Below are positions 3,059 to 9,541 of a stretch of 64,000 bases of DNA, in pieces. The position numbers and the translations under genes are program-made. Origin of the DNA: Guyparkeria sp. SCN-R1 (GTDB lineage: Bacteria; Pseudomonadota; Gammaproteobacteria; Halothiobacillales; Halothiobacillaceae); assembly GCF_003932495.1 (NCBI RefSeq), contig NZ_QZMT01000001.1, positions 248,001 through 312,000 on the forward strand, written 5' to 3'. Position 1 is the stretch's first letter. Each line of letters begins with the position of its first letter. The notes below the pieces were generated by a model. The model was given only the letters and a program-made list of their open reading frames with translations, did no database searches and was not told the origin of the DNA.

Positions 3059-4687
3059 CTAGATTTCGTGAATGGCGATGCGGTTTTCGTTTTTCAGCGG
3101 GCGGATGATCTCAGGCCGGCCGAAGTGGAAGCCCTGGCCCCAGTCGATCCCCATCTCGCGCAGCAAGTCGGCGGTGCGCTCATCACCGATAAACTCGGCG
3201 ACGGTAACCAGCCCCATGTCCTTGGCCATGGCCTGGATATGGCGGACGATCTTCTGTGCCCGGACGCTGTCGCTCATGTTCTGGACCAGTGCGCCTTCGA
3301 TCTTGAGGAACGTGAACGGCATGTCGAGCAGGTAGCGGTAGGAAGAGTAGCCGCTGCCGAAGTCGTCCAGGGCGAGTCGCAGGCCGAAATCGATCAGGGG
3401 CCTGAGTGCGCTGAAGGCATCTGACGTGTCTTCAAGCACCTCGCGTTCGGTCATCTCCAGGACCAAGGGCTTGGGACCCGCATTCATCTCACCGCCGATG
3501 CACTCGCAGGCGGCCTGGGCGTTGGTAATCACCTGTTCCATCAGTTCCGGGTGCTGCAGGAAGTCCCCCGAGATATTGACGAAATGCGCCATCGGTCGAT
3601 GACCGATCGAGGCCACGCAGTTGTTGATGGTCTGGTTAATGATCTCGAAGTCGATCCGGTGGGCCATCTGCAACCGCGAGGCGGCATCGATGAACAGGCC
3701 CGCCGGGATAACGTCGCCTTCGGGAGTGATCATGCGGGCCAGTGCCTCGTCGGCGACTACCTCGCCGGTCTTGAGATCGACGATCGGTTGGCTGGCGGCG
3801 ACGATGCGCCCTTCGTGGATGGCGCGATCGAGCGCGCCGCCGGTGGTGTAGACCGAGGGTTGCTGCAGCCGGTCGGCGTTGACCACGCGGTCACGGCCGG
3901 TGCGCTTGGCCTCGTAGACCGCGGCATTGAGCGCGCTTAGCTGGTCGCGGGGCTGGGTGCGGGACGTTTCACCCGGGCCGAGCGCGCCGTGACCGATGCT
4001 GACGGTCACCGAACCCAGCGGCGGGGCGTCTTCGCCGCCGTTGAAACGGACGCTGGCGGCAGACGCGCGGATGCGTTCGGCAATCTGCTGGCTGTGTTCT
4101 GCCTGGCGGGGCGGGATCAGGAGCATGAACTCGTGACCGCTCCAGCGCGCGGCCATCACGTCGTCGGGGACGGCGGCCTGCATGGCGCCGGCCAGATCGC
4201 GGATGACCCGGTCGCCGACGTGATAGCCGAGGTAGTCGTTGACGGTCTTGAGCCGGTCGATGTCGACCAGCATGAGGCGATGGCCGCCGTCACCATCGGA
4301 CTGGATGTCGCGGATCCGTTCGAGCATCGCGCTGCGGTCCGGCAGGCCGGTGAGCGAATCCAGGCTGGTGGGCGGGCAGAGGCTTTCCAGTAGCACGACC
4401 AGTCGCTGGTGCTCGTCCAGCGGGGTGATGGCGAGCGTGATCTCCCGGTTGTCCATCAGTCCGATCAGCGAGGTCTCCTCGCCATCGATCAGGGCGGTGC
4501 CCAGTGACGGGCCGGGGTTCATGCGCAGGCGGCGTTCCAGGCGTTCGCGAAGGGTCTGCTCGCCGTCTGTCGGGAACAACTCGTCCGCCCGGGGTGTGGC
4601 GCTGAGGACGCGCCCGGCGGCAGTGCAAAGAAAGACGACCATGCCCGAATCGGTCCCTCCGTCGGCCGTGGCGTTGTCGAGTTGCAT
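3059..4687 (-). CDS. GGDEF-EAL protein: degenerate cyclase domain, intact-looking EAL phosphodiesterase
   Basis: A 542-residue cytoplasmic protein with no membrane segment. An N-terminal PAS-like region is followed by a GGDEF domain (about 120-285) whose signature is WSGHEF instead of GGDEF, so cyclase activity is doubtful. The C-terminal EAL domain (about 290-535) keeps DEALARM, FVNISGDF, LEMTE, LDDFGSGYSS and KIEGAL, the usual metal and substrate ligands. It is therefore probably a c-di-GMP phosphodiesterase with a sensory or GTP-binding GGDEF relic. ATG 4687 is preferred because GGAAGGA lies about 9 bp upstream; an in-frame ATG at 4744 is also possible. Monocistronic and probably separate from the next gene. 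Confidence 0.85.
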   Translation of the reverse strand: MQLDNATADGGTDSGMVVFLCTAAGRVLSATPRADELFPTDGEQTLRERLERRLRMNPGPSLGTALIDGEETSLIGLMDNREITLAITPLDEHQRLVVLLESLCPPTSLDSLTGLPDRSAMLERIRDIQSDGDGGHRLMLVDIDRLKTVNDYLGYHVGDRVIRDLAGAMQAAVPDDVMAARWSGHEFMLLIPPRQAEHSQQIAERIRASAASVRFNGGEDAPPLGSVTVSIGHGALGPGETSRTQPRDQLSALNAAVYEAKRTGRDRVVNADRLQQPSVYTTGGALDRAIHEGRIVAASQPIVDLKTGEVVADEALARMITPEGDVIPAGLFIDAASRLQMAHRIDFEIINQTINNCVASIGHRPMAHFVNISGDFLQHPELMEQVITNAQAACECIGGEMNAGPKPLVLEMTEREVLEDTSDAFSALRPLIDFGLRLALDDFGSGYSSYRYLLDMPFTFLKIEGALVQNMSDSVRAQKIVRHIQAMAKDMGLVTVAEFIGDERTADLLREMGIDWGQGFHFGRPEIIRPLKNENRIAIHEI

Positions 4688-4821
4688 CGTCCTTGTTCCT
4701 TCCCTGCCAGTCGTTCCTGTCACCCGTTCCTGAGTGACGCCCATGAAGGCATCCTAGCAGCGAATTGGTGCGAGCTGAATCAGCGCGGTCTTATATAACC
4801 CGGCCGCGCCAGGCGGCGTAT

Positions 4822-7113
4822 TCAGGTGGTCCTCGTATCGCAGAGCGGGTTGGCGTTTATGCCGTCGATGCAGCGGATCAGCGCGGCAATGCGTGGCGCG
4901 ATGCGCTCGGCCGTTTCGTTGGCGTCGAGCGCATCCTCAAGCTCACCGGCGAGTGTCTGCAACTCGGTTTCACGACAGCAGGCGGCGGCCCCCCGGAGCT
5001 TGTGCGCGGCATGGCGCAGCGTTTCGTGATCGTCGGCCTGTTCGGTCAGTAGCCGCCGGTAGCCCGGCAACTCATCGCAGAGCAGCCGGGTGAGGAACGG
5101 GTCGCGTTCGTCCTTGCGGTCGTTTCTGGCGGGCGGGGTGGTCTCCGGGTCGGGACGACCGTGAGTCTCCAGGGGGAAGAATTCGCCGATCGAGCTGAGC
5201 AGATCGCCGGCGGTGACCGGTTTGGTCAGCACCCGTTCGATGCCGCTGTGCAGCAGGTCCTGGTGCACGTTGCCCTGCCGGTTGGCCGTGATGGCGATTA
5301 TCGGGGTTTCCAGGTGGCGCGGACGCTTTTTCAGGATGCGTGCGACGCCGGCACCGGTGATGTCCGGCATGTGCATGTCGGTGAACACCACGTCGATGTC
5401 TTCATGATCAGCCAGTGCCAGCGCCTGCTTGCCGTTGGTGGCCTCGAGGACGTGGAATCCCAGTTCACGCAGCGTTTGCCCCAGGTGGGCGAGGTAGACC
5501 GGGTCATCGTCGATCACCAGTGCGGTCCGGCCGGCAAAGGAATACAGGGCGTGTCGACCCGGCTTGCCCTGCCGTGGTTTGTCGCTGCCACCGCTAGCGG
5601 GGGGGCTGTCGGCTTGGCGAGGTGCGGCAAAACGGGCTGGGCTGCGACCCGGTCCCGGTGTCGGGGCGCCCAATACCCGTTCGAGCGAGGCGGCCAGCGC
5701 CCGGGCTCGAATGAACAGTGGCAAGGTGAAGTCCGCCCAGTGCAGCGCCGCGGCCGGCCGTCCCCGAATAGTCAGGTGGCTGGATAGCCCGATGACCCGC
5801 CCGGCCAGCGAGACCCACTGACCGAAGGCCGGGTCCTCGTGGTGTCGTTCGACGATGCGCTCGTCGAGGAACAGCAGGTCGACTGGCTGGCCGAAATCCG
5901 GCTCGACCTGGATGTTCGCCCCGAGGGCGGCGAGGTTGCCCTGCCAGGCACGGCGATGTTGCGCCGAGGCGCAGACCACGGCCGCCAGTTGGCCCGCCAA
6001 CCGGTCGCTGCTGTCGGGTTCGCCGATCAGGATGGGGGCGCTGAAGGTCGCGGTCATCCCGAAGCGCTCCGGGCCGGTGTCGACCACCTCGAGTGCCGAA
6101 TCGAGGTGATGGGAGATGCAGCGCAGGATCCAGAGATCGATCAGATCGTCGATCAGCAGGCCCTCGAGTTGCTCGGGCAGTGGTTGCGCGAGGCGTTCGG
6201 CTAGTTGTTCCCGATCGAGAGAACCGTCACGGGCCTGCCCGTCGATGGTCAGGCGAAAGCGTCCCAATCGGTCGCCGCCCTCGTTCTCGTGGTCATCCTC
6301 GAGTTCCAGCGTGATGGCCGGCTCGCGCAGGTGGGCGATGCCGAGGATCTCGTTGAGCAGACGGTCGAGCAGACGGCGCAGCATCTGCGGATCGAACACG
6401 ATCTCTCGCGGCAGGTCCTGGTAGCCGATGAACTGCAACACCTCGCCGTCGCGCTGGGCGGTGGTCTGCCAGTCGGTCACCAGGTCCTCGCCCGTGGTGC
6501 GCAGGTTGACCCGCCCGTCGGTGCGCGTCATGCGGCCAGCGGTGATCTCGTGGTAGTCGATGATGTTCTCGATCGAGAGGCGCAGGCGGTGGCTGGCGTG
6601 ACGCATCAGCTGGAGTGATCGGGCCGGTTCCTGTTCGCCGTCCTTGGCCGGTGGCGCGCAGCGGCTCAGGCGACGTTCCAGCGTGGCGAGGCTGTCGACC
6701 GCCGATCGGATGTGCCCCAGCGGCGTCACCCATTGCTGGTTGACCAGTTCGAGTACCGTGGCGGCCGAAAGCTGGCTTTCCGGTCCGGTGCGCTGGATCG
6801 GTGGCGCCGACTTGCTGGTTGCGTTGGTCTCCGAGGGATGGGATCGCCGCCGAAACCAAAGGAGCGTAATCGACAGGCCGGCAAGGAGCAGCCAGATGCC
6901 GGTCCAGCCGATGGTTGCCGCCCAGAATGCGGGCGAGGGAAGGGTTCGGCCGGAAACGAGCGCCTCGATCGCGAGCAGCAGCGGGGGAGCGACCAGAGCG
7001 AGCAGGGCCCAGGGCAGGATAGCTCCCAGGGCGGCAAGACGGCCGGCGGGGCCACGTTGTGTGGCGGTCTGTTTACTGCGGATCGGAGCGTTCACCGAAG
7101 GCCTTTGTGGCAT
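4822..7113 (-). CDS. GacS/BarA-position hybrid protein with degenerate kinase core, receiver and Hpt domains
   Basis: A 763-residue protein divergent from cysM-rlmD, the place of gacS in Pseudomonas. Two membrane helices (about 26-50 and 64-86) enclose only a short loop; no HAMP or PAS is evident. The dimerisation-like helix (about 118-140) reads QQWVTPLGHI where an H-box has SHELRTPL, so the phosphoacceptor His is replaced by Gln. The following ATPase-like region lacks DxGxG. A pseudo-receiver-like stretch follows. The C-terminal receiver (about 529-648) keeps VIDDD, FTDMHMP (Asp near 579), AITAN and LTKP, and the Hpt domain keeps HKLRGAA (His near 704). ATG 7113 is chosen; longer versions would run into cysM. 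It may be a phosphorelay node fed by another kinase rather than an autokinase. Confidence 0.8.
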   Translation of the reverse strand: MPQRPSVNAPIRSKQTATQRGPAGRLAALGAILPWALLALVAPPLLLAIEALVSGRTLPSPAFWAATIGWTGIWLLLAGLSITLLWFRRRSHPSETNATSKSAPPIQRTGPESQLSAATVLELVNQQWVTPLGHIRSAVDSLATLERRLSRCAPPAKDGEQEPARSLQLMRHASHRLRLSIENIIDYHEITAGRMTRTDGRVNLRTTGEDLVTDWQTTAQRDGEVLQFIGYQDLPREIVFDPQMLRRLLDRLLNEILGIAHLREPAITLELEDDHENEGGDRLGRFRLTIDGQARDGSLDREQLAERLAQPLPEQLEGLLIDDLIDLWILRCISHHLDSALEVVDTGPERFGMTATFSAPILIGEPDSSDRLAGQLAAVVCASAQHRRAWQGNLAALGANIQVEPDFGQPVDLLFLDERIVERHHEDPAFGQWVSLAGRVIGLSSHLTIRGRPAAALHWADFTLPLFIRARALAASLERVLGAPTPGPGRSPARFAAPRQADSPPASGGSDKPRQGKPGRHALYSFAGRTALVIDDDPVYLAHLGQTLRELGFHVLEATNGKQALALADHEDIDVVFTDMHMPDITGAGVARILKKRPRHLETPIIAITANRQGNVHQDLLHSGIERVLTKPVTAGDLLSSIGEFFPLETHGRPDPETTPPARNDRKDERDPFLTRLLCDELPGYRRLLTEQADDHETLRHAAHKLRGAAACCRETELQTLAGELEDALDANETAERIAPRIAALIRCIDGINANPLCDTRTT

Positions 7114-7181: not shown

Positions 7182-8084
7182 ATGTTAGGTCACCGTCTTG
7201 ATCAATTGATCGGCAACACGCCACTGGCGCGTATCCAGCGCCTCGACCCCACGGGTGCGGCGCGCGGCAACGTGATTCTCGGCAAGCTCGAGGGTAACAA
7301 TCCGGCCGGATCGGTGAAGGATCGCGCGGCCCATTCGATGATCGCACGCGCCATGGAACGTGGCGAGATCAAGCCCGGCGATCGATTGGTCGAGGCGACC
7401 TCCGGCAATACCGGCATCGCACTGGCGATGGTGGCTGCCACGCTGGGCCTGCGCCTGACGCTGATCATGCCCGAGCACATGTCGATCGAACGGCGCCAGT
7501 CGATGGCGGCCTACGGGGCGGAGCTCAAGCTCGTCTCCCGGGATGAGGGCATGGAAGGCGCACGGGACCTTGCCGCCGCGATGGCCGCGCGAGGCGAGGG
7601 CACGGTGCTGGACCAGTTCGCCAACCCGGACAACCCGCGGGCGCATTACCTGACGACCGGCCCGGAAATCTGGGCGGCCACCGAGGGCCGTGTGACGCAT
7701 TTCGTCTCCGCGATGGGCACCACCGGCACGATCATGGGCACCTCGCACTACCTCAAGGAGCAGAACCTCGGTGTGCAGATCGTCGGCGTTCAGCCGGGCG
7801 AGGGCGCGCAAATTCCGGGGATTCGGCGCTGGCCGAAAGAATACCTGCCCCGGATCTTCGAGCCGGCGCGGGTGGATCGCACCCTGGATATCGGCCAGGA
7901 TGAAGCCGAGGAAATGACCCGGCGGCTGGCGCGCGAGGAGGGCATCATGGCGGGGATCTCCTCGGGCGGCGCGATGGCCGCGGCCCTGAAGGTGTCCGCG
8001 GAGGTGGAGAACGCCGTGATCGTCACTATCGTCTGCGATCGTGGTGACCGCTACCTGTCCACCGGGGTCTTCCCGGCGGGCTGA
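7182..8084 (+). CDS. cysM: Cysteine synthase B, O-acetylserine sulfhydrylase
   Basis: PLP enzyme making L-cysteine (or S-sulfocysteine from thiosulfate, by family) from O-acetylserine. The 300-residue length matches CysM (about 303). Signatures: IGNTPL at the N-terminus, the PLP lysine in AGSVKDRAA (Lys46), TSGNTGIALA, and the C-terminal SSGGAMAA loop. ATG 7182 is chosen because it gives the family N-terminus and has GGAGCGAG upstream; an upstream in-frame start at 7059 would add residues overlapping the divergent gene. It sits beside rlmD, as in Pseudomonas, and ends before a strong hairpin. Confidence 0.95.
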   Translation: MLGHRLDQLIGNTPLARIQRLDPTGAARGNVILGKLEGNNPAGSVKDRAAHSMIARAMERGEIKPGDRLVEATSGNTGIALAMVAATLGLRLTLIMPEHMSIERRQSMAAYGAELKLVSRDEGMEGARDLAAAMAARGEGTVLDQFANPDNPRAHYLTTGPEIWAATEGRVTHFVSAMGTTGTIMGTSHYLKEQNLGVQIVGVQPGEGAQIPGIRRWPKEYLPRIFEPARVDRTLDIGQDEAEEMTRRLAREEGIMAGISSGGAMAAALKVSAEVENAVIVTIVCDRGDRYLSTGVFPAG

Positions 8085-8164: not shown

Positions 8165-9541
8165 ATGGCCCGCAACCCCAACCGCAAGAAACGCCACAAG
8201 CACAAGCATGCCAAGCCGCTGCCGCCGGGCGAGTTCGAAGCTCATATCGAGTCGCTCACCCTCGAGGGTCGCGGCGTGGCTCACGTCGATGGCAAGGCGA
8301 CCTTCGTCGGTCGGGCGCTGCCGGGCGAGGACGTGCGCTTCGTGTATCGCGACCAGCGCCGGCATTTCGATCTGGGTGATGCGGTGGCGGTGGATCGGGC
8401 CAGTCCAGAACGGATCGAGCCGGGCTGCCCACATTTCCATCATTGCGGTGGATGCGCCATGCAGCACTTGGCCCCTGAGGCGCAGGTGCGCCACAAGCAA
8501 CAGGCCTTGCTGGATCAACTGTCGCGGATCGGGCGGGTAACGCCGGAGCAGGTGCTTGAGCCGTTGACGGGGTCGATCTGGGGCTACCGCCGCATGGCGA
8601 GATTGGGAGTGCGCTTCGTGCGCAAGAAGGGGCGTGCGGTGGTGGGGTTTCGCGAACTCGGCTCGCCTCTGCTCGCCGATATCGACACCTGCCCGGTGCT
8701 CGACCCGCGGGTGGGCGAGCGATTGCCGGCGATCGCCGAACTGATCGGCGAGATGGATGCCCGGCGAGACATTCCCCAGATCGAAGTGGGCTGTGGCGAT
8801 GCGCACTGCGCCTTGGCCTTCCGCCACATGGTGCCGCTCGGGGAGGCGGATCGGGCGCGTCTGGATGCCTTTGCCGACGCGCACGGTTTCGCGATCTTCC
8901 TGCAACCCGGCGGCCCGGACAGCCTCGAGCCATTGGTAGAGGGGGCGCGCGACGTCTACCCGAGTTATCGTCTCCAGGAGTTCGATGTCGAGATCCGCTT
9001 CTCGCCGCTGGACTTCGCCCAGGTCAATGCCGAGATCAACCGCCGCATGGTGCACCAGGCGTTGGAGTGGCTGGCGGTGAAACCGGGCGATCGAGTGGTG
9101 GACCTGTTCGCCGGGCTTGGCAATTTCAGTCTGCCACTGGCCCGGCAGGCCGGTCCGGTGGGGTCGGTCACCGCTGTGGAGGCGGATCAGGCGATGGTCG
9201 AGCGCGGCGCGGCCTGTGCGACGAGCAATGGCATCGAGAACACACGCCACGTCGTCGGCAACCTGTTCGATCCCGATGCTGGCCACGGCTGGATGAACGA
9301 GTCGTTCGACCGCGTCCTGCTCGACCCACCGCGGGCGGGCGCCGAGGCCATGATGTCCGTGATCGCGCGCATGAAGCCGGCCCGGGTGGTTTACGTCTCC
9401 TGCCACCCGGGAACGCTTGCCCGGGATGTCGGTCGGCTGGTGAACGATCACGGTTGGCGGCTGTTGGCGGCGGGCGTGATGGACATGTTCCCCCATACGG
9501 CACACGTCGAATCCATGGCGGTGCTTGAACCGGGGCGCTGA
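8165..9541 (+). CDS. rlmD: 23S rRNA (uracil(1939)-C5)-methyltransferase
   Basis: SAM-dependent methyltransferase forming m5U1939 in 23S rRNA. A basic N-terminus leads into a TRAM RNA-binding domain (about 20-80), then the iron-sulfur cysteines in GCPHFHHCGGC, then a Rossmann methyltransferase domain with VVDLFAGLGNFSLP, LLDPPRAGA and the catalytic Cys in YVSCHPGTLARD. At 458 residues it is slightly longer than E. coli RlmD (433). It follows cysM, the order seen in pseudomonads; the terminator between them suggests separate transcription. Confidence 0.96.
   Translation: MARNPNRKKRHKHKHAKPLPPGEFEAHIESLTLEGRGVAHVDGKATFVGRALPGEDVRFVYRDQRRHFDLGDAVAVDRASPERIEPGCPHFHHCGGCAMQHLAPEAQVRHKQQALLDQLSRIGRVTPEQVLEPLTGSIWGYRRMARLGVRFVRKKGRAVVGFRELGSPLLADIDTCPVLDPRVGERLPAIAELIGEMDARRDIPQIEVGCGDAHCALAFRHMVPLGEADRARLDAFADAHGFAIFLQPGGPDSLEPLVEGARDVYPSYRLQEFDVEIRFSPLDFAQVNAEINRRMVHQALEWLAVKPGDRVVDLFAGLGNFSLPLARQAGPVGSVTAVEADQAMVERGAACATSNGIENTRHVVGNLFDPDAGHGWMNESFDRVLLDPPRAGAEAMMSVIARMKPARVVYVSCHPGTLARDVGRLVNDHGWRLLAAGVMDMFPHTAHVESMAVLEPGR

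Follow-up and report, generated by a model that had tools for sequence, protein, structure and literature searches.

The gene at the GacS/BarA position of Guyparkeria sp. SCN-R1 encodes a protein of 763 aa, here called pseudo-GacS, that carries an intact receiver and an intact Hpt domain behind a kinase core for which loss of autokinase activity is well supported by sequence comparison. It lies within a window of 64,000 nucleotides, the whole stretch of DNA that was analysed. In gammaproteobacteria the Gac/Rsm system is an intensively studied global switch whose sensor is assumed to act as a kinase. Pseudo-GacS itself probably adds no phosphate but passes it on or takes it away. The explanation preferred here, held tentatively and at somewhat less than an even chance, is that the protein is a GacS/BarA ortholog without autokinase that has been retained as a phosphoryl exchanger facing GacA, with a net drain of GacA~P favoured. 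In this lineage of sulfur oxidisers GacA, the GacS relay half and, in most genomes, CsrA have been kept while the kinase half is gone, which offers a natural case for viewing relay and phosphatase functions apart from that of the kinase.

Domain layout and locus

The coding frame is open from an ATG at 7113 to its end at 4822 on the minus strand (Table 1). Only Response_reg (residues 532-642) and Hpt (678-750) score above the Pfam cut-off in pseudo-GacS. HisKA, HATPase_c, HAMP and PAS gave no Pfam match in the 763-aa protein, residues 111-485 searched by themselves likewise gave no Pfam match, and all 16 core sequences scanned were without a HisKA or HATPase_c match at an E value of 0.1. An alignment with an intact BarA nevertheless spans all of residues 111-485 and takes in the DHp, CA and receiver-like regions of that protein; residues 372-482, judged by their place in the BarA/GacS layout, presumably correspond to the degenerate receiver of these proteins. 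The NCBIfam BarA equivalog model scored 92.6 bits for pseudo-GacS versus a cut-off of 890. The relic H-box NQQWVTPLGHIR covers residues 125-136 (window 6706-6741), with the phospho-acceptor His replaced by Q126, the following acid replaced by Q127, and T130 kept. The first-pass annotation had already described this substitution (QQWVTPL) and the missing DxGxG, and both were borne out; GxGL is likewise absent. Its description of the receiver (Asp near 579) and Hpt (His near 704) as retaining their key residues also agrees with the present reading, in which D535, D536, D579, T609, K631 and H704 are all present. It had further reported HAMP and PAS to be absent; the lack of a Pfam match stands, and carries little weight because the intact BarA of a third genus (see below) gives none either. 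In a low-confidence model the membrane part forms helices at residues 25-53 and 61-90, and the loop between them leaves no space for a periplasmic sensor domain. Residues 1-112 are weakly conserved.

Table 1. Features of the pseudo-GacS locus, in window coordinates
Feature	Position	Strand	Basis or remark
GGDEF-EAL protein, downstream	3059..4744	-	same strand as pseudo-GacS; seen in 17/17 loci examined
Pseudo-GacS/BarA (P0001)	4822..7113	-	763 aa; start MPQRP common to 7/8 Guyparkeria rows
Intact Hpt, residues 668-752, H704	4858..5112	-	Pfam PF01627
Intact receiver, residues 528-645, D579	5179..5532	-	Pfam PF00072
Internal region, residues 372-482	5668..6000	-	alignment position; dN/dS 0.09
CA (ATPase)-like region, residues 204-362, without second N-box Asn, lid DxGxG or GxGL	6028..6504	-	alignment, motif scan, fold matches
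DHp-like region, residues 113-203, with relic H-box	6505..6777	-	alignment, dN/dS, motif reading
Two predicted membrane helices with a loop of few residues, residues 25-90	6844..7041	-	low-confidence model and hydrophobicity by eye
cysM, divergent neighbour	7182..8084	+	by eye and first-pass annotation; start inferred
rlmD	8165..9541	+	by eye and first-pass annotation

The full-length AlphaFold model reached a pLDDT of 45.7, and a model of the core (residues 113-372, from an eight-row alignment) reached a pLDDT of 53.6 and a pTM of 0.42 and was used for fold matching only. The top Foldseek match of this low-confidence core model was the kinase region of Pseudomonas aeruginosa GacS (7z8n; E 6.7e-6, TM-score 0.38), which also ranked first by VIA-align (Z 10.0, rmsd 4.8, 168 residues aligned); phytochrome kinase-like domains did equally well (E 9.6e-6; Z 9.5 and 9.1), and further matches included RetS, CpxA, ChpT and DivL (4q20). 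A sequence search of solved structures found the receiver side only, among the best 60 matches listed. The model shows a predicted histidine-kinase fold for the core; the fold alone does not place the core in GacS.

Relatives were compared as a set of 20 proteins, namely pseudo-GacS and 19 others, with 10 proteins from each of two genera that by inference are Guyparkeria and its sister Halothiobacillus. The window's genome is a draft of 2.42 Mb in 68 contigs, 99.99% complete. Full-length proteins were found in 10 of 11 Guyparkeria genomes, the exception being 64% complete, and in all 10 genomes of the sister genus, with identities to pseudo-GacS of 67-90% among the Guyparkeria relatives and 36-39% in the sister genus. 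The surroundings were examined at 17 loci, seven of 10 in Guyparkeria (the window included) and 10 of 10 in the sister genus. In the window, 68 bases separate the inferred start codons of pseudo-GacS and cysM (7113 and 7182). The first-pass annotation had placed the gene divergent from cysM-rlmD, the gacS location in pseudomonads. The cysM part of this arrangement holds at every locus examined (17/17), whereas cysM followed by rlmD was seen at all seven Guyparkeria loci and rlmD was not found in any of the 10 sister-genus stretches, though cysM is present there.

A genome of a third genus (G021) has a BarA in which HisKA, HATPase_c, receiver and Hpt are all intact, divergent from cysM-rlmD, on a contig that stops short of the expected place of the GGDEF-EAL gene. 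Because an intact BarA occupies the same site in this genus, the dead state is best read as a derived loss. In a tree of the receiver and Hpt domains the 20 dead proteins formed one clade with 98/96 support and a long stem; the four outgroups also sit on long branches, so that details outside the dead clade are unsure. The simplest history is a single loss in a common ancestor of Guyparkeria and its sister genus, and the pseudokinase seemingly arose in place, not from a duplicate. Besides its cysM-linked BarA, the third genus has a second hybrid kinase of 1404 aa with an intact H-box and an Hpt-like end (L088, G021:C58). A fourth-genus genome encodes a hybrid kinase (L029) with an intact H-box and a weaker match; no cysM was found in the stretch fetched. 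The order-level search covered the same 27 genomes as the family-level search. A class-wide search of 321 genomes with a 16-row core query (threshold 1e-8) returned four matches, three from the own genus and one a canonical BarA with SHEIRTP (G173). The ten sister-genus genomes, which this query would have hit, gave no match and so lay outside the sample, which is sparse and cannot speak for absence elsewhere in the class.

The GGDEF-EAL neighbour is itself altered. Its GGDEF motif is degenerate, reading SGHEF in 17/17 relatives aligned, and its EAL motif reads EAL, ETL or ESL in 17/17, with the other inspected EAL-domain residues kept in 16/17 (the remaining sequence, L078, is gapped). Two degenerate signalling domains thus lie side by side at all 17 loci. 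Identification of the neighbour as CsrD was rejected, the CsrD model scoring 63.4 bits versus 188 for DibA; phosphodiesterase models scored higher, all under their cut-offs. In sequence the neighbour resembles c-di-GMP phosphodiesterases more than CsrD, and c-di-GMP might conceivably be linked to the dead core.

Conservation of the relic core

The relic H-box follows the pattern NQ[QHN]W[VI]TPLGHIR in both genera. The phospho-acceptor His is Gln in 20/20 proteins, the H+1 acid and the H+3 basic residue (Arg) are replaced in 20/20, and Thr-Pro at H+4/H+5 is kept in 20/20. The second N-box Asn is absent in all 20, and the first is kept in the 10 sister-genus proteins but is Arg in the 10 Guyparkeria proteins. 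A script scan found GxGL in 0/20. D.G.G occurs in one protein (L015) near residue 345, away from the lid, which lies near 293 in two intact proteins. On the other side of the protein, receiver residues D535, D536, D579, T609 and K631 and Hpt residue H704 are invariant in 20/20. The loss of autokinase proposed in the first-pass annotation is therefore strengthened by comparison, since no protein of the 20 retains the His, the H+1 acid, the second N-box Asn or the glycine boxes. Its suggestion that relatives be inspected for the same substitution, and that orthologs with an intact H-box might expose a local artefact, was followed: the Gln is fixed in two genera and the H-box is intact in the third. 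A sequencing error was accordingly rejected, the same substitution occurring in 20/20 proteins. W128 (H+2) and H134 (H+8) are also invariant in the 20 relic H-boxes; at these places the two aligned intact proteins carry Ile and Ser/Ala. H134 is an unlikely substitute phospho-acceptor, the protein being without an ATP site, and the low-confidence structure models are too weak to argue for or against another histidine. One sister-genus copy (L027/L085, G014:C122) has a long His/Ser/Gly-rich insertion in the receiver-like region, with the frame still open.

In Guyparkeria, mean dN/dS over 45 pairs (42 for the linker; the pairs are not independent) was 0.12, 0.19 and 0.09 for the DHp-like, CA-like and internal receiver-like regions, 0.05 and 0.165 for the receiver and Hpt, and 0.61 and 0.53 for residues 1-112 (the membrane part) and the linker. 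In the sister genus the five domains gave 0.07 to 0.18 and residues 1-112 gave 0.51, with synonymous sites near saturation and 13 to 31 of 45 pairs usable. Across both genera the relic H-box itself is the best-conserved 14-residue stretch in the core, with 11 of 14 positions invariant; for comparison, the Hpt motif has 12/14 and the receiver start 11/14. Judged by these ratios, the dead core is under purifying selection, and such constraint implies that it has some function. A decaying gene on its way to loss would account for the missing catalytic motifs and the missing space for a sensor domain. It can scarcely be credited, however, for a frame that is open in 20 genomes of two genera and a core whose dN/dS is near that of Hpt.

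GacA and candidate phosphate donors

The first-pass annotation had proposed a search for gacA/uvrY elsewhere in the genome, and at a threshold of 1e-40 GacA was found in 21/21 genomes of the two genera, with two matches in the third genus and 0/5 fourth-genus genomes matching. Asp54 is present in 23/23 matches. In the third genus a second GacA-like regulator is present. At 1e-20 the dead GacS or its intact relative tracks the GacA pattern, save in one 64%-complete genome. A link between pseudo-GacS and GacA is thus supported by co-occurrence. The GacA protein of the window's genome scores best with the NCBIfam model UvrY/SirA/GacA (191.8 bits, short of the 280-bit cut-off), and its gene lies directly before uvrC (named by eye), as in the known uvrY-uvrC order. 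CsrA was found in 23/27 genomes. The classical sRNA output was not seen in the window's genome, because no GacA box occurred there at 0 or 1 mismatch; the consensus is that of Pseudomonas, so this says little.

The Hpt of pseudo-GacS is the sole Hpt of its genome outside two CheA-type proteins (five matches). The same genome gave 19 receiver, 15 HATPase_c (one being HtpG) and 8 HisKA matches, and the HATPase_c places at C14:26827, C1:56281 and C1:15450 are supposedly gyrase, topoisomerase and MutL. Apart from pseudo-GacS, the only frame joining HATPase_c and a receiver is CheA-type (2206 aa); no hybrid kinase of another type, no second, intact GacS and no LadS-like hybrid was found in this genome, and a receiver gene lies within 2 kb of all eight HisKA kinases. 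A kinase-like ATPase frame at C26:15351, a 372-aa AT-rich protein with no receiver nearby, was considered as an orphan kinase and judged a poor candidate. This protein (HATPase_c match at C26:15351-15692; L089:578-1696) has a Cys-rich start and is perhaps accessory. Other Guyparkeria genomes differ: a hybrid kinase of 927 aa is encoded by G001, and receivers lie within frames of 958 aa in G002 and 928 aa in G008. Several hybrid kinases with receivers, such as an 874-aa frame of G012, occur in the sister genus. AckA was found in 10/11 Guyparkeria and 4/10 sister-genus genomes, and a PTA_PTB match, partial in both genera, in 9/11 and 1/10; both are missing in 6/10 sister-genus genomes, the one-contig G012 included.

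Direction of phosphate flow and comparison with known systems

In the preferred explanation, H704 of Hpt would exchange phosphate with D54 of GacA and with D579 of the receiver, while the relic DHp would dock on the D579 receiver, where T130 would speed hydrolysis. The net flow would run from GacA~P to H704, on to D579 and out as phosphate, and a signal would set the docking, perhaps by way of the CA-like part or of the GGDEF-EAL neighbour. The H704-GacA and D579-H704 steps are chemically possible both ways, with the first step of the classical relay missing; the donors weighed were a kinase in trans, acetyl phosphate, or none, with flow backward. The drain is favoured because the His, acid and basic residue are lost but the H+4 Thr is kept (20/20), a kinase-minus, phosphatase-plus combination as in CrdS. 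In CrdS (PMC3510030), His and acid mutants were still active as phosphatases, giving CrdA~P half-lives of 2.6 and 0.4 min versus 53.5 min for CrdA~P alone, whereas phosphatase activity was lost in the H+4 mutant N375A (47.6 min); full kinase activity required a basic residue at H+3. The H+4 residue of HisKA transmitter phosphatases of the RetS type is Thr or Asn, and it is Thr in all 20 proteins. RetS, with a degenerate ATPase domain, acts as a transmitter phosphatase on the GacS receiver and requires its H+4 Thr, T428 (PMC5992135). By analogy with these proteins, the reading favoured is that pseudo-GacS would speed hydrolysis of receiver phosphate.

Several points weaken the drain. CrdS with Thr at H+4 (N375T) was only partly active (PMC3510030), and DivL, its His replaced, has neither kinase nor phosphatase activity (PMC4211667). 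A drain also requires some phosphorylator of GacA, and none was found, the only other hybrid of the window's genome being CheA-type and AckA and Pta both missing in 6/10 sister-genus genomes. Thr-Pro could also be retained for the helix kink alone, which counts against a drain. The stronger form of the idea, in which GacS has become a dedicated phosphatase-type drain, Hpt and receiver run the relay backwards, the Gln-for-His, Thr-kept H-box of the two genera hydrolyses the receiver phosphate and a 'kinase' gene only switches GacA off, appears rather unlikely. Under this stronger form the sign and logic of the Gac switch would be inverted in these sulfur oxidisers.

A forward relay in trans, in which another kinase charges D579 or H704, H704 passes phosphate to GacA and the dead core is a docking platform, is the main rival, though on the doubtful side. 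RcsC feeding RcsD is an analogue of such a trans-fed relay. The receiver and Hpt residues kept in 20/20 proteins fit this explanation, as do the hybrid kinases with receivers in the sister genus and in G001, and transfer from LadS through GacS H2 to GacA (PMC4866733) is a precedent. In the window's genome, however, only the CheA-type frame joins kinase and receiver and every HisKA kinase has a receiver gene nearby, and a forward relay alone leaves the kept H+4 Thr unexplained. The first-pass annotation had offered both phosphate from another kinase and a phosphatase role toward GacA; the former is weakened by this kinase inventory and the latter is favoured by the kept Thr. Acetyl phosphate, passed from D579 to H704 to GacA, would suit the many Guyparkeria genomes with AckA and a partial PTA_PTB match, but the sister genus, largely without either, makes it unlikely as a common donor and this metabolic relay very unlikely as the explanation. 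The core could instead act by contact only, as a scaffold or sensor that binds a phosphorylated receiver or another kinase, with phosphotransfer secondary. Constraint on a core missing its catalytic residues is consistent with this, and there are two parallels: DivL, devoid of both kinase and phosphatase activity, binds DivK~P (PMC4211667), and a laboratory-evolved ChrS pseudokinase needs HrrS, the heterodimer partner of ChrS (PMC9491836). A scaffold would not need the invariant catalytic residues of the receiver and Hpt, and we consider it improbable.

Kinase-dead histidine kinases (DivL, RetS and laboratory ChrS) and use of the GacS Hpt by another kinase are already known. What seems to be new is that the ortholog at the GacS position is itself the dead protein while its relay is kept; no kinase-dead GacS/BarA appeared among the open-licence literature matches listed (titles and abstract starts), a BarA paper matching 'pseudokinase' had the word in a reference title only, and neither GacS nor BarA is present in the text of a Guyparkeria genome paper. 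The case is also a warning for annotation, as the C-terminal half would earn the gene the name BarA/GacS.

Compared with GacS/BarA, pseudo-GacS shares the cysM-linked position of an intact BarA of the same bacterial family, the layout DHp-CA-receiver-like-receiver-Hpt, the catalytic receiver and Hpt residues and a GacA in the genome; among the fold matches of its low-confidence model GacS ranks first, level with phytochrome kinase-like domains. Pseudo-GacS differs in being without the phospho-acceptor His, the ATP site and space for a periplasmic sensor. ChpT, among the fold matches, likewise uses a kinase-like fold as a phosphotransferase, but it works with a DHp His, which is gone in pseudo-GacS. 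DivL is not known to have an Hpt of its own, unlike pseudo-GacS. RcsD is similar in being a membrane phosphotransfer protein with Hpt and a kinase-like layout. By definition, an RcsD has an Hpt without its own receiver and an RcsC-type partner, whereas pseudo-GacS has its own receiver and no non-CheA hybrid partner was found in its genome. RcsD also differs in its lack of a receiver, its large periplasmic domain and its partner kinase RcsC (PMC13317618), where pseudo-GacS joins receiver and Hpt in one chain. RetS is similar in its degenerate ATPase domain and kept H+4 Thr and in acting on the GacS receiver, but it keeps His and acid (HExxT; PMC5992135); it also acts on a separate, active GacS, whereas pseudo-GacS sits in the own place of GacS, in a genome where no active GacS was found. 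Caulobacter DivL (PMC4211667) is similar in its replaced phospho-acceptor (Tyr550), its lack of autokinase and its kept kinase fold, which is among the fold matches of the core (4q20); it differs in having no phosphatase activity, and pseudo-GacS has Gln, not Tyr, at the position of the His.
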